Shown in pieces: positions 3,243 through 36,312 of a stretch of DNA of 64,000 bases. Made by a program: the position numbers and the translations under genes. The DNA lies in NCBI GenBank assembly GCA_002255985.1, contig NKIR01000004.1, positions 1-64,000 of the forward strand, written 5' to 3'. Position 1 is the stretch's first letter. Each line of letters begins with the position of its first letter. The DNA comes from Sphingomonadaceae bacterium PASS1. Lineage in GTDB: Bacteria > Pseudomonadota > Alphaproteobacteria > Sphingomonadales > Sphingomonadaceae. Below the pieces are notes generated by a model, which had not been told where the DNA came from, searched no databases, and was given only the letters and a program-made list of their open reading frames with translations.

Positions 3243-5297
3243 TCATTGGACAGGCTCCAGATACTTCACGACCCTGAGCCCTGTGGCCTTGCCGTGGAAT
3301 TTTCCAGCCTCTGTGACGAGGTAGCCATGCTGCTGCCACTTGCTAATAGAGGTCTCAGCCTCGCGCTTGCTTACCCCATATTTTTCAGAAATAAGGTCGA
3401 CCGCAAACCGGCCCTTGCGCCTTGCATGCGGAAATACAGACCAAGGTGATCCTGCACGCCAAGCTTCGTCAATCGCTTGGAATATTTCACGGATATGGTG
3501 CCAACTTAGGCGCTTGTCGTCCAACGGAGTTACACCTGCGCCTAGCACTGGCACGAGCGTATTTTGCTCAGGGCCAAGTCCGACTGTCAGGTCAACAACC
3601 TTCATTGTAAAATGCAGATCATTGAGTTCTTCGCCGTCCTTCTGCTTTTCAACACAGAGCGTCGTGATATCTTCCTCTTTGGCGATGCGGATCGAGGTAT
3701 CACAGCCACCCAAAAGCACAGTCGAGCCGCGCATGCCGCGGTCGAGTTCCTTGCCCGAATGGTGGACCCCGATCACGCTGCCAGAGCAATGCTGCTGAAG
3801 GGCGGCGCAGCCGTCGATAAACAGCGACATGGCTTCCTGGCTGTTCTCATTTTCGCCCGGGATCGAGCGCGACACGGTATCGATCACAACCAACCCGATG
3901 GCAAAATCGACCTCGGCGCGCACTTGGTCGATTGTTCGCTTCAGTTTCTCAATGCTGGCAGGATCAAGCATACGGACGGCAAGAGGCAGCAGCTTAAACG
4001 GCGCATCGACGCGGTCCAACCTATGCTCGCGGCGCCAGCCCTTGATCCGCTGACCAATTCCGTATTTGCCTTCGCCAGCGATGTAGAGAATGCCGGTCTG
4101 CTTGGTCGGCTTTCCATGCCAGCAAAGACCATATGCAACCCGCAGTACCATATCGAGCGCGATAAACGTCTTATGCTCGCCTGGCCGGCCATAGAGCAGC
4201 ACCAGGCCGTGCGCTGGGATCAGGCCATCGATCCGCCAGCTTGGTGGCGGCATGTTGTCGATCTCATCAAGGCTCAAGGTCTCAAAGACGTCAGGGGTGC
4301 TAACAATATCACTGACTACACTGCCTGCATCCAGATGTGTCCTGACCGCATCTTTGCCTGACAGCGCAGCCATATCGTTAAAATCTGTCCCGTCGGCTCC
4401 TTGCCTGAAAATCGGAAAGACCGCATCGCAGCGCAAGATGCGCGCGGCTTGGACTGCTGCATCACGGCCGACGTTATTAGGCTTGCCCCGGTCATCGTCA
4501 CCGGCGACCAGCCAACGGGACTTGGGATAGGCTGACACAAGCTGCTCAGCGACTTTGGCTAGGTTGCCGGCATTGAAGGTGACGATGACGCTGCGGCCGG
4601 TGGCTTCATGCAAGGAAGCGCCAGTTGCGAAACCTTCACAAACTAAGACAGGCGCGGCTGCCGCTGTGACTGGCGGTCCGATGATGAACATAGCGCCTGC
4701 CACCGGAAGATCGGCTTCAAATAGCTTGTGGCCGGCAGGATCAATCGACTGCAAAGATTTAAGCACGCCATCGGTATCGAACAGCGGCACCAGGACGTGC
4801 TCACGATCGAGCCGCGTACCATTGGGCCCAATGCCCTTAGCCGTCAGATAGGGATGGGATGAATAGCCGGGATCCGCCGCTGCCCAACGCAGACGCATTT
4901 GCTCAGCGGCGGTCTTTCGGCGCGCGGCCTGCTCTGCCTCAAAAAGTGCCTGCCTCTCCTTGAGTTCATTGGCGCGAGCTTCGGACAGGACGGGCATCAT
5001 TCCGCCCGTTAGGTGCTTAGCTGCGGCCCCTAAATCGAGACCAACCTTGGCTTCCAAAAAATCAAATACATCGCCATTTGCTCCGCAGCCGAAGCAATTA
5101 TATCGCTGGTCCTGCGGATACACCGTAAACGACGGCGTGCGCTCTGTATGAAACGGGCACAGTCCGACAAGCGTCTGGCCGCGCTGCTTAAGCACAAGAT
5201 GCCGGCGGATTTCATCAGCCAGCGGGAACTGGTCCTTGATCGTGTCAATATCGATGCTGCCGGTTTCAATGCGACGCGCCATGGCGGCCAGGACCAC
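3243..5297 (-). CDS. phage DNA primase/helicase (CHC2 zinc finger, TOPRIM, RecA-like ATPase)
   Basis: A bifunctional replication protein of 684 residues. An N-terminal CHC2 zinc finger uses Cys47, His50, Cys68 and Cys71. A TOPRIM domain follows, with Glu221 in VCEGFATG and the acidic run AGDDDRG near 266. The C-terminal half is a RecA/RepA-type ATPase with Walker A GRPGEHKT (370-377) and Walker B LVVIDTVSRS near 473. The primase part would make RNA primers and the ATPase part would unwind or load DNA, so the element encodes its own initiation machinery. It is the largest gene of the leftward operon and ends beside the iteron-like repeats. Confidence 0.88.
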   Translation of the reverse strand: MVLAAMARRIETGSIDIDTIKDQFPLADEIRRHLVLKQRGQTLVGLCPFHTERTPSFTVYPQDQRYNCFGCGANGDVFDFLEAKVGLDLGAAAKHLTGGMMPVLSEARANELKERQALFEAEQAARRKTAAEQMRLRWAAADPGYSSHPYLTAKGIGPNGTRLDREHVLVPLFDTDGVLKSLQSIDPAGHKLFEADLPVAGAMFIIGPPVTAAAAPVLVCEGFATGASLHEATGRSVIVTFNAGNLAKVAEQLVSAYPKSRWLVAGDDDRGKPNNVGRDAAVQAARILRCDAVFPIFRQGADGTDFNDMAALSGKDAVRTHLDAGSVVSDIVSTPDVFETLSLDEIDNMPPPSWRIDGLIPAHGLVLLYGRPGEHKTFIALDMVLRVAYGLCWHGKPTKQTGILYIAGEGKYGIGQRIKGWRREHRLDRVDAPFKLLPLAVRMLDPASIEKLKRTIDQVRAEVDFAIGLVVIDTVSRSIPGENENSQEAMSLFIDGCAALQQHCSGSVIGVHHSGKELDRGMRGSTVLLGGCDTSIRIAKEEDITTLCVEKQKDGEELNDLHFTMKVVDLTVGLGPEQNTLVPVLGAGVTPLDDKRLSWHHIREIFQAIDEAWRAGSPWSVFPHARRKGRFAVDLISEKYGVSKREAETSISKWQQHGYLVTEAGKFHGKATGLRVVKYLEPVQ

Positions 5298-33295: not shown

Positions 33296-34159
33296 TTGCA
33301 GCATTCCGGCTGGATTTTCTTAGCCGCGCTCGGGGGAATCTCCGCGCAGCCATTAAGCGTAGCGGCTGCACCAACAGAAAATACGCAACAGCCATCTGCG
33401 CCTGAGGACTTCTGGATGTCTATGCCAGCGGTACAGGGGGGTCTCGTCATAGCGCGTGCGCCACGCGGTGCAGTGTCCGTCACGATTAACGGCGTTGCGT
33501 TGCCTTTGACAGCCGAAGGCTTTTTCCTGATGGGGTTTGACCGCGACGCCGAAAATAGCGCTATCCTGAGCGCGACATTCGCCGATGGTCGAACGCTGGA
33601 TCGCACTTTGGCAGTAACACCGGGCAACTGGCGGATTGAAAACGTATCTGCCAACCCGACGGGCGGCGCAAAAACAACCGCAGAGTTTGAGGCAAGACGC
33701 GGCGCAGAGCTCGACCGCATAAATGCAGCGCGGGCCAAAACCACTCTCGGTAATGGCTGGCGGCAGGCATTTATGCGCCCCGTGGCTGGCCGGACGTCTG
33801 GCCTATTTGGCGCGCAGCGTATCTATAACCGGATACCCGGCAGCTATCATAGCGGCATGGACATTGCCGCACCAAATGGCACAAATTTTGTCGCACCTGC
33901 GGACGGTGTCGTCACGCTTGCGGCCGCTGATGCCTTCACGCTGGAGGGGCATTTGCTGATGATTGATCATGGCATGGGCTTAAACAGCGCATTTTTACAC
34001 TGCTCCGAACTTCTCGTAAAAGAAGGCGATTATGTGAAGCAGGGGCAAGTCATCGGGCGTGTTGGCGCGACCGGAAGAGCAAGCGGTCCACATCTGCACT
34101 GGGGCATGAAATGGAACAGTGCGCGCATTGATCCAAAGCTATTGATACCCGCAACATAA
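33296..34159 (+). CDS. M23 (LytM-like) metallopeptidase, exported
   Basis: 287 residues with an N-terminal signal. The LytM core is complete: YHSGMDIAAPNGTNFVAPADG near 182 with His and Asp zinc ligands and GPHLHWGMKWN near 260 (HxH). It would cut peptidoglycan cross-bridges or act in division. The start is taken as TTG 33296, with AAAAGGG just upstream. Last gene of the xseA-DUF2093-M23 run. Confidence 0.85.
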   Translation: MQHSGWIFLAALGGISAQPLSVAAAPTENTQQPSAPEDFWMSMPAVQGGLVIARAPRGAVSVTINGVALPLTAEGFFLMGFDRDAENSAILSATFADGRTLDRTLAVTPGNWRIENVSANPTGGAKTTAEFEARRGAELDRINAARAKTTLGNGWRQAFMRPVAGRTSGLFGAQRIYNRIPGSYHSGMDIAAPNGTNFVAPADGVVTLAAADAFTLEGHLLMIDHGMGLNSAFLHCSELLVKEGDYVKQGQVIGRVGATGRASGPHLHWGMKWNSARIDPKLLIPAT

Positions 34160-34359
34160 GCTGCCGTTTCGAACACCCTAAATCACTGACCGTGCTAAAA
34201 ACGGGCAGACTGAACCAAACCGGATGCGTGACGGGAGGAACGGCGTGCGCGCAAGCTAAGCCAGCGGTAACGACGATTTTTCGCCGATTTGTTAATGGAA
34301 AAATCCCGTTCGGCCATTGTTCCAGCGAGGTTTCTGTTCTGCATGTCATCTGCACAAGG

Positions 34360-34472
34360 AAAAACACCCCAGCCATAAGCCGGGGTGTTTAGGGTGCTGG
34401 TCCAATGGGGGGGGGAGACCAGCTGGGTAAACCATTTTTCGTAAGCCAACGCTCACGATTATCTCGTTTAGA
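34360..34472 (-). ncRNA. candidate general-stress small RNA with C-rich loop (GsrN-like)
   Basis: A leftward transcription unit of about 113 nt with no credible gene. It starts a few bases beyond a perfect EcfG promoter (34480-34504) and ends at a strong terminator (arms AACACCCC and GGGGTGTT, then five T, 34360-34390). Inside, GCTGGTC (34423-34417) pairs with GACCAGC (34402-34396), presenting a 14-base loop that contains nine consecutive C (34415-34407). Caulobacter GsrN is a stress-sigma-dependent sRNA with a C-rich loop that pairs with mRNA leaders such as katG, so this is proposed as its functional counterpart. The rest of the M23-phyR interval (34160-34359) shows nothing else. Confidence 0.65.
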
Positions 34473-34479
34473 TCAGGCA

Positions 34480-34504
34480 AACGTCGATCAATAAACTTTG
34501 TTCC
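34480..34504 (-). promoter_or_regulatory. EcfG-type promoter for the C-rich-loop RNA
   Basis: On the minus strand GGAAC (34504-34500), 16 bases, then CGTT (34483-34480): an exact match to the EcfG consensus GGAAC-N16/17-CGTT. It begins eight bases after the phyR stop codon and points away from phyR, with no gene in front of it, only the small-RNA candidate and its terminator. Confidence 0.8.
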
Positions 34505-34511
34505 CGAAAAC

Positions 34512-35294
34512 CTAGGCGGCTTCGGAATTTATATCGACTTCACGATGCATCAGCAGCGCCTGGCCGATTGTCGCAATGACCGTTTCGGGTTCAAACGGCT
34601 TTGTAATCAGATATGTCGGTTCCGGGCGCTCGCCAGTAAGTAGCCTTTCCGGGAACGCTGTAATGAAGATCACTGGCACGGTCTGTTCGGCCAGAATATC
34701 CTTTACGGCATCAATGCCACTTGAGCCGTCCGCAAGGCTGATATCAGCCAAAACCAGTTCAGGCCGTTCGTCGCGGGCTTTGGCCACTGCTTCTGCACGT
34801 GTCCGGACGATTGCGATCGTTTTATGACCCAGATTTTCGACGATTTGTTTGATGTGCAATGCAATGATCGACTCATCTTCAATAATGAGTACGCGCGCAC
34901 AAAGCGCATCTTCGATGGCACTTCGGGCAGCGACAACATGGCTGTTTACGTCCGATTCCAAAATGCCCAATATTTTGGCCACTTCATTTGACTTAAATCC
35001 TTCAACCGTGGACAAAAGCAGGCTCTGACGGCGCTTTATAGGAAATTCGGCGATAACACCGCTGCGACCTCGCGATTGGAGCGGCACGATCATGTCGCTA
35101 TTCCAAATGCGGTGAAATGTTCTGAACAATTCCGTCTTAACTGGCGCTGCCTCATCCCACTCTTCGGGTGCTTCCAACAACGCTTCCAGCGTTTCCCGTA
35201 CTGCTGCATCTCCCAATGTCTGTGACCCCGTCAGGGCACGCGCGTAACGTCGTAGGTATGGCAATTGCGATGCCAGCTGTTGCCTAAATGACAT
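34512..35294 (-). CDS. phyR: general stress response regulator PhyR (anti-anti-sigma)
   Basis: 260 residues: an N-terminal sigma-like domain (sigma2/sigma4 mimic, QLPYLRRYARALTGSQTLGDA to about 130) and a C-terminal receiver domain with LIIEDESIIALHIKQIV, phospho-acceptor Asp in LVLADISL and FITAFPE, Lys in YLITKPF. When phosphorylated it binds NepR and frees EcfG. It is divergent from nepR-ecfG and has its own EcfG-like promoter. No partner histidine kinase gene lies nearby. Confidence 0.95.
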   Translation of the reverse strand: MSFRQQLASQLPYLRRYARALTGSQTLGDAAVRETLEALLEAPEEWDEAAPVKTELFRTFHRIWNSDMIVPLQSRGRSGVIAEFPIKRRQSLLLSTVEGFKSNEVAKILGILESDVNSHVVAARSAIEDALCARVLIIEDESIIALHIKQIVENLGHKTIAIVRTRAEAVAKARDERPELVLADISLADGSSGIDAVKDILAEQTVPVIFITAFPERLLTGERPEPTYLITKPFEPETVIATIGQALLMHREVDINSEAA

Positions 35295-35353: not shown

Positions 35354-35377
35354 GGAACATTATCCCGCGTCGCGGTT
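35354..35377 (+). promoter_or_regulatory. EcfG-type promoter of nepR-ecfG
   Basis: GGAAC (35354-35358), 16 bases, then GTT (35375-35377). It precedes nepR by about 130 bases and lies eight bases from the divergent phyR promoter, so the whole locus would be under positive autoregulation. Confidence 0.75.
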
Positions 35378-35506
35378 TAATAGCATATGAAAATGCATCA
35401 GTTTCAGCCCAGTCCATGGTATTAAACCATGGGAATTCCTTCAGGCCAAGGTCACCCGGAAGCGGTCAGAGTTCCCGATGCAGCAAGCACCTGGGAGGGC
35501 CAATTA

Positions 35507-35695
35507 GTGGGCAGTAATAAGGGCAAGCAACCGCTTGACGCGATTAGTGAAAATATGGATTTTGAATTCGACCCTTTGACTGCTGCACTGCGTCAAATGC
35601 ACGATAGCGTTGCCAATGAACCTATCCCTGACGACTTTTTGGACTTGCTGGATATGATCGACGCAAAGATGTCGGCGTCGAAGAAGTTCCAGTGA
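35507..35695 (+). CDS. nepR: anti-sigma factor NepR
   Basis: 62 residues that sequester EcfG in unstressed cells. The conserved core LTAALRQMHDSVANEPIPDDF with FLDLLDMIDAKM is diagnostic. I choose GTG 35507 because GGGAGGG stands seven bases upstream and the resulting length is normal; an ATG at 35429 has no ribosome binding site. The stop overlaps the ecfG start (GTGA). Confidence 0.9.
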   Translation: MGSNKGKQPLDAISENMDFEFDPLTAALRQMHDSVANEPIPDDFLDLLDMIDAKMSASKKFQ

Positions 35696-36312
35696 GAAGC
35701 ACCGCGACGGAACCGATCCCTAAGTCCGAAAAGTCGGACGCATCCGCTGATTTTCGTGCACAAATGATCGCGATCATTCCGTCGTTGCGTGCGTTTGCGC
35801 GGGGCCTTTGCGGTAATCGGGAGCTTGCCGACGATCTTGCCCAAGAGGCAATGATGCGGGCATGGGCGGCGCATGAAAGCTTCACACCGGGTACCAACTT
35901 TCGCGCCTGGATGTTCATGATATTGCGCAACCAGTTTTACACGACGATGCGCAAAAACGCGCGCATGACGAGTTGGGATCCGGAGGCAGCAGAGCGACTG
36001 TTGGTCGAGGCGCCGCCGCAACAGCACCATATCCATATGCAAGATGTTGAAAAGGCGTTGCAAAAATTGCCCGCTGAACAGCGCGAAATCCTGATGATCG
36101 TTGGCGCAGGTGGTGCGAGCTACGAAGAGGCGGCCGATATCACGGGCTGCGCTATTGGAACGGTAAAAAGCCGGCTTGCGCGTGGCCGCGTTGCCTTGAC
36201 CGCGCTCATCAATGGGCCTGATGAGCCACGGCGCGTGAAAGCACCTCCACGCAAACGCGCGAAGGAAGCGGTAAAAGATATCCCACATCCCAAGCCAAGC
36301 ATATCACCATAA
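35692..36312 (+). CDS. ecfG: ECF sigma factor EcfG (general stress)
   Basis: 206 residues. Sigma2 region (LRAFARGLCGNRELADDLAQE, then FRAWMFMILRNQFY) and sigma4 region (LPAEQREILMIVGAGGASYEE with ITGCAIGTVKSRLARGR) are clear, with a basic, proline-rich tail. It directs RNA polymerase to GGAAC-N16/17-CGTT promoters. GTG start at 35692 overlaps the nepR stop, so both are made in step. Closely neighbouring targets are seen at 34.5 and 37.2 kb. Confidence 0.93.
   Translation: MRSTATEPIPKSEKSDASADFRAQMIAIIPSLRAFARGLCGNRELADDLAQEAMMRAWAAHESFTPGTNFRAWMFMILRNQFYTTMRKNARMTSWDPEAAERLLVEAPPQQHHIHMQDVEKALQKLPAEQREILMIVGAGGASYEEAADITGCAIGTVKSRLARGRVALTALINGPDEPRRVKAPPRKRAKEAVKDIPHPKPSISP

Follow-up and report, generated by a model that had tools for sequence, protein, structure and literature searches.

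The window analysed here, by which we mean the whole stretch of 64,000 nucleotides, carries a phyR gene on the minus strand and, divergent from it, nepR and ecfG, the last so named because of its sigma-70 regions 2 and 4 and its place behind nepR (Table 1). Among named phyR loci the closest to that of the window are Sphingorhabdus records and sphingomonad MAGs, and the host is a Sphingorhabdus-like sphingomonad. The phyR stop ends at 34512, and after 7 bases there begins, on the same strand, a perfect EcfG-type promoter box, followed by a hairpin whose 14-nt loop includes nine consecutive C and by an intrinsic terminator; these three elements were the core of the original prediction, made from the letters alone, and all of them are present as it described them. 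A run of A stands 5' of the terminator, so that the convergent M23 peptidase gene may be served by the same structure.

Table 1. Features of the phyR-nepR-ecfG region of the window
Feature	Position	Strand	Basis
M23 peptidase gene, convergent	33296..34159	+	
Predicted sRNA transcript, about 110-115 nt	34358..34472	-	inferred: start from promoter spacing, end from terminator
Intrinsic terminator, 13 pairs, T tail	34390-34362	-	
C-loop hairpin: 7-bp stem GCTGGTC/GACCAGC, loop TCCCCCCCCCATTG	34396..34423	-	
EcfG-type promoter GGAAC-N16-CGTT, GGAACAAAGTTTATTGATCGACGTT	34504-34480	-	pattern match
phyR (260 aa; PhyR_sigma2 and Response_reg)	34512..35294	-	Pfam
Near-consensus EcfG box GGAAC-N16-CGTA ahead of phyR	35346-35322	-	by eye
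Near-consensus EcfG box GGAAC-N15-GGTT ahead of nepR-ecfG	35354-35377	+	by eye
nepR, anti-sigma factor	35429..35695	+	Pfam
ecfG, sigma factor	35692..36312	+	Pfam sigma-70 regions 2 and 4

A 119-nt stretch has a folding energy of -45.8 kcal/mol, the average for its shuffles being -30.0 (z -4.6), the predicted 115-nt transcript reaches z -6.2, and the C-rich loop is open in the predicted folds. GGAAC-N15-17-CGTT is matched three times in the window against 1.62 expected, with 23 of 100 shuffles equal or better, and genome-wide the EcfG box has 60 matches against 160 for a reversed control pattern; the box alone was therefore rejected as evidence, being at chance level in both window and genome. 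The C-loop hairpin is the sole one that our search settings return in the window, and a block shuffle, crude in that it inflates C runs, yields a mean of 4.2 C-loop hairpins per window; the hairpin alone was rejected in its turn because it is not rare in that shuffle. Since neither box nor hairpin is rare singly, the case for a small RNA is made by conservation.

A nucleotide search found matches in nine of the 45 genomes of the genus. A covariance model of the hairpin and terminator (R1, from five sequences and searched in genus and family) gives matches in 33 of the 45 at E 0.1, and in 17 of the 45 at 41.6 bits or more, the next match standing at 30.4; these 17 are the genomes counted here as RNA-positive, and we refer to their RNA, with its single C-rich loop, as type I. 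The fetched matches below 41 bits (L108-L146) were read singly: many are a CUCCC-rich three-hairpin RNA, and most others resemble ordinary terminators behind genes. Of the 17 RNA loci, 15 retain a GGAAC-N16-NGTT box against a background of 0.018 per 118 nt, the RNA loci being themselves related. Its position is -73 in ten loci, the window included, -74 in one, and -40 to -42 in four, and in these four the -35 half falls within the last phyR codons with the stop codon just before CGTT. The 3' half reads CGTT in eight of the 15 and AGTT, GGTT or TGTT in seven. Box and hairpin are separated by 23 to 57 nt, with no gene seen between them in the loci read by eye. In the four species with a short leader, two of which were folded, the hairpin begins near nt 25 of the stretch given to folding. 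Loop length is 12-20 nt, and C makes up at least 50% of the loop in all 17 loci, with a longest C run of 4-9; a C-rich loop is therefore kept and nine C as such are not, so that the very long C run, which had been put forward as the mark of the type, holds for loop composition and fails for run length.

Covariation of the hairpin stem, proposed beforehand as a check, gives a divided answer. In A5, a 17-row alignment of type I RNAs fitted to the covariance model and compared with 500 shuffles, 96.4% of cells pair, compared with 92.7% after shuffling, and the covariation score of 0.176 exceeds the 0.122 of the shuffles, none of which reaches it. Pairs changed on both sides are few: there are four, three of them in the stem of the C-loop hairpin, where the shuffles average 2.0 and 20 of 500 reach four. 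Further pair types show no excess, their level being reached by 338 of 500 shuffles. The stem covariation of type I is thus modest. Alignment A1 was set aside because MAFFT had displaced its terminator by one or two columns; A3 (16 rows), whose figures are better than those of A5 (six pairs changed on both sides, covariation 0.267), was left out of the counts because it contains a minus-strand match of L007 and weak matches of L027 and L020.

PhyR has a match at E 1e-30 in 20 of the 45 genus genomes, and 15 genomes have both PhyR and the RNA, five PhyR only, two the RNA only, and 23 neither (Fisher p 5e-6), although this co-occurrence is confounded by descent, and in five of the 15 genomes with both the matching phyR is shortened or interrupted. 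In the 15 genomes with both, the RNA stands directly behind phyR, and the expectation that an EcfG-type promoter and a C-loop hairpin would be kept there in relatives was borne out, with the RNA in 15 of the 20 PhyR-bearing genomes and the box in 15 of 17 RNA loci. Of the two genomes with the RNA and no PhyR match, G014 retains the last 31 phyR residues and an intact box, and G023 has a small open frame instead of phyR, preceding the hairpin. The genomes with PhyR and no RNA are G006, G007, G008, G009 and G012; in G007 (L164) we see by eye a box behind phyR and then a C-rich-loop hairpin ahead of the next gene.

Uninterrupted phyR, nepR and ecfG occur together in ten of the 17 RNA loci (G000, which is the window's own genome, G003, G004, G011, G013, G019, G020, G026, G027 and G040), and the box is intact in all ten and in five of the seven others. 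The two boxless loci are those of Sphingorhabdus rigui, where it is decayed, and G023, where it is gone; hairpin and terminator remain in both. The phyR frame of S. rigui DSM 29050 (L012:3001-3783) has an internal stop, with the decayed EcfG box downstream. In G002, G029, G038 and G039 phyR is shortened at its start, the matches running from residues 139, 105, 15 and 82, and no nepR or ecfG match is found in the fetched flank of these four, G014 or G023 (1.5 kb; 3 kb for G038 and G039). Five of the six loci with phyR shortened or gone keep the box, which speaks either for a recent loss of the stress genes or for an RNA independent of them. Box loss coincides with a broken phyR, yet most broken loci retain the box. 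Across the genus, 25 of 45 genomes, many of them 98-100% complete, have no PhyR match at E 1e-30, against 351 of 397 family genomes with one; whether the genus has undergone repeated and partly recent loss of the general stress response is a question that these counts pose.

A second RNA, type II, was found in 25 of 80 named phyR loci (for example L054:765-876 and L085:797-908). It has two hairpins, runs on the opposite strand and, wherever the flank is complete, lies some 2 kb from phyR; a contig end truncates one of the 25 copies. Its first loop reads UG, then 6, 7 or 9 C, then GCUC, and the longest C run of its second loop is 5-13 in the 24 complete copies. GGAAC-N16/17-NGTT stands 50-51 nt ahead of the first C run in all 25, with CGTT in 22. 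In a plain MAFFT alignment (n=17), 95.6% of cells pair, and 12 of the 24 pairs have both partners changed, whereas the shuffles average 4.5 and none of 500 is as high; four members fold at z -5.6 to -7.6. The type II covariance model R2, which excludes the promoter, finds matches at E 0.001 in 149 of 397 sampled family genomes and 39 of 96 genera. In the genus of the window it matches two of 45 genomes, both weakly, with no match in the window's own genome, and across the class two of 289, one in the same family and the other G555 (E 4e-4). Twenty R2 matches from 19 genomes and 17 genera were fetched, picked for spread with weak ones included: the box GGAAC-N16/17-NGTT lies 25-28 nt before the model start in 19 of them (the exception is L214), and a full PhyR match lies within 4 kb in nine and not in eleven. 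PhyR is matched in 146 of the 149 R2-positive genomes (351/397 family-wide), the other three being assemblies of 66-90% completeness.

Types I and II share an EcfG box at a fixed distance, C-rich loops, a bacterial family and often the neighborhood of phyR. They differ in that type II has two C-loop hairpins, the first with its steady UGC6-9GCUC, no separate terminator hairpin, and a different site, either elsewhere or some 2 kb from phyR and encoded on the opposite strand. R1 does not pick up the type II RNA in the phyR loci, and Rfam has no match in the four type II loci tried. As far as our searches go, type II is a family so far undescribed and of the same kind as the window RNA.

Box and C-loop hairpin together exceed chance. 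The fetched loci together hold 336 distinct GGAAC-N16/17-NGTT boxes. When the 110 nt behind each box were folded, an open C-rich loop followed 82 of them, of which 77 are type I or type II RNAs (14 of type I, 55 from loci that have the first-loop motif of type II, and eight type II variants); outside these RNAs such a loop follows five of 259 boxes. Among the remaining five, L133, L024 and two Oceanicaulis loci may be real RNAs too. L133 (genome G306, minus strand, about 1501-1617) has GGAAC-N16-CGTT, a terminator and, between them, a hairpin with one bulge and the loop CCCTCCCCCACCCCA; the long frame that they follow resembles RNase R, and G306 has the two-loop RNA as well. The single-loop plan is therefore not confined to the genus, and the proposal of a distinct sphingomonad type is left half standing: the RNA differs from the commoner two-loop form and is found beside phyR in this genus only, but a single-loop RNA behind a perfect box occurs in another genus. 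In the Oceanicaulis loci L040 and L050, a box about 1.2 kb past phyR on the minus strand precedes hairpins with loops such as ACCCTCCCCCC, possibly GsrN-like RNAs.

Further C-rich elements were met in the same material. The three-hairpin RNA is C-rich and conserved, has a terminator, and forms its hairpins around UCCCCUCCC and ACUCCCUGAACCU; it was seen in L108-L117, L119, L122, L127, L137 and L139, and in the window's own genome near 4264-4323 of G000:C19 (L310). Upstream of it, L310-L312 show CTTGAAA...CCCATTCT, which is similar to a heat-shock (RpoH) promoter, and Rfam has no match in the four copies tried (L109, L110, L122, L137). In S. profundilacus (L027:4090-4591, 27.8 bits) and a Novosphingobium MAG (L020:3018-3518, 21.1 bits) an EcfG-type box comes after phyR, then a gene that Pfam identifies as PRC-barrel, and past this gene a hairpin and terminator whose loops are C-rich. 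In Sphingobium phyR loci (for example L033, L036 and L039) an EcfG-type box behind phyR is followed by a short open frame that, read by eye, resembles a membrane protein with one helix.

Rfam 15 reports a single tRNA above gathering threshold in the whole window, a best score of 18.5 bits against a threshold of 55 for the RNA interval at E up to 10, and no match in the type I loci L104 and L105. The nearest described RNA in plan is GsrN of Caulobacter crescentus, about 100 nt long, with an EcfG/SigT-type promoter and an exposed C-rich loop that pairs with G-tracts, the active C-loop lying in the 5' part within a 51-54-nt isoform (PMC5869019). In Caulobacteraceae its homologues usually lie close to ecfG, nepR and phyR, and the BLASTn hits given in the homology account of that paper are confined to Caulobacteraceae (PMC5869019). 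The window RNA is like GsrN in its EcfG-type promoter sequence, its exposed C-rich loop and its site near ecfG-nepR-phyR, and unlike it in that the loop hairpin occupies about nt 50-77 of the 115, preceding the terminator and not in the 5' part. The target motifs listed for GsrN include runs such as GUCGGGGGGCG (PMC5869019) and imply a G-flanked C run, whereas the loop flanks of the window RNA are U and A. Membership in GsrN is not claimed, because the window loop is not in the 5' part and the likeness is one of plan. The sphingomonads include Erythrobacter litoralis. That species has no apparent gsrN-like gene according to a figure of the GsrN paper, which proposes GsrN-like RNAs near the stress locus for Caulobacteraceae and Rhizobiaceae (PMC5869019).

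In placement the closer parallel is ReC64 of Rhizobium etli, an EcfG-dependent ncRNA downstream of phyR whose start has been mapped (PMC3892343), which on our reading is the R. etli GsrN candidate of PMC5869019. The window RNA likewise has an EcfG-type box just past phyR, on the same strand and intergenic, and is likened to ReC64 by this placement; ReC64 differs in lying behind phyR-tcrY and has a rhizobial sequence, set beside the window RNA by description. We take the CcsR or 'cuckoo' sRNAs of Rhodobacter to resemble the window RNA in having C-rich loops and being stress-induced; they are RpoH-dependent and linked to ccaF1. A literature search, with preprints and most subscription papers outside its scope, found no EcfG-controlled sRNA for sphingomonads. 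An EcfG-driven ncRNA beside phyR is thus already known from R. etli, and the sphingomonad form is new as far as these searches go.

Three things were observed directly: the anatomy of the locus, its persistence among relatives in the genus, and the retention there of the box, the stem and the chemistry of the loop. The reading that we favor, and regard as probable, is that the stretch encodes an EcfG-dependent trans-acting sRNA of about 110 nt, GsrN-like in action and ReC64-like in placement. The box that stands ahead of type II in 25 of 25 phyR loci and in 19 of 20 fetched R2 matches supports this reading by analogy. By analogy we infer the transcription of the window RNA, its EcfG dependence, its pairing and targets, and the sign of its regulation. 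Under stress PhyR would become active and NepR would be removed from EcfG, and EcfG would transcribe the sRNA from the GGAAC-N16-CGTT box, the transcript ending about 110 nt on at the terminator. The stable hairpin would keep the C-rich loop open for pairing with G-rich mRNA stretches, either Shine-Dalgarno-like or G-tracts of leaders, and this pairing would alter the translation or stability of the targets, as GsrN does with katG. This model of pairing is adopted because mutations of the GsrN loop and of its target compensate each other (PMC5869019).

The hairpin is co-directional with phyR and right behind it, and hairpin and terminator outlast the box in S. rigui and G023, as would be expected if the locus gave no RNA of its own and the structure simply closed the phyR message, with a hairpin that stabilises it and a terminator common with the M23 gene. 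We think this unlikely, for it leaves unexplained the box at a steady spacing in 15 of 17 loci and a loop that varies in sequence yet remains C-rich, and the plan of box and C-loop also occurs away from phyR (11 of the 20 fetched R2 loci). The PRC-barrel gene between box and hairpin in L027 and L020, and the small open frame before the hairpin in G023, would fit a C-loop hairpin that is a module processed from the 3' ends of stress mRNAs, the independent promoter being a side branch; the scores of L027 and L020 are weak, however, and no gene was seen by eye between box and hairpin over the 23 to 57 nt of the loci read, and we regard such processing as quite unlikely.

Candidate targets of the favored sRNA were sought through G-rich leaders. 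GGGGGG-N0-14-ATG has 104 matches in the own genome against 33 for the reversed control, ATG and GTA being unequal in frequency, and 30 loci, representing 25 distinct places, were fetched. The best-looking candidate was the leader of dnaJ, which was read in 30 of 42 matching genomes (L280-L309): a G-tract, counted as at least 5 G, is present in 15 of the 16 RNA-bearing genomes and in 10 of the 14 that lack the RNA. We rejected dnaJ as a supporting target, as much of the genus keeps the G-tract whether or not it carries the RNA, and the tract therefore lends no support to pairing. That the one candidate target followed, dnaJ, fails to discriminate, and that the composition of the loop is kept while its exact sequence is not, would agree with an EcfG-dependent RNA that uses its C-rich loop to bind a protein or titrate a chaperone in place of pairing with G-rich mRNAs; the pairing of the GsrN C-rich loop with katG mRNA, with its compensatory mutations, argues against this (PMC5869019), and we consider it very unlikely. 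Chance association of an unconnected box, hairpin and terminator has a negligible claim, for box and hairpin are each unremarkable singly but hairpin and terminator recur in 17 of 45 genus genomes with the box in 15 of them, and such a loop stands behind only five of 259 other boxes.

A wider proposition, on which our judgment is evenly balanced, is that the alphaproteobacterial general stress response has a standing RNA arm, in which each lineage has an EcfG-driven RNA whose sole fixed working part is an open C-rich loop. The sphingomonads would have at least two architectures without detectable relation, the two-loop RNA (39 of 96 sampled genera) and the single-loop RNA standing in for it in Sphingorhabdus, the RNA having been re-invented or having diverged beyond recognition with promoter logic and loop chemistry kept.

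Sphingomonads are common plant, freshwater and pollutant-degrading bacteria in which PhyR-NepR-EcfG signalling is under study. If the favored reading is true, their stress response has a post-transcriptional arm, whose distribution in the family could be mapped with the two covariance models R1 and R2. Natural experiments are provided by S. rigui, where the box has decayed behind an interrupted phyR, and by the five loci that keep the box behind a shortened phyR, and with two architectures sharing one loop chemistry, whether selection keeps the C-loop alone becomes testable.
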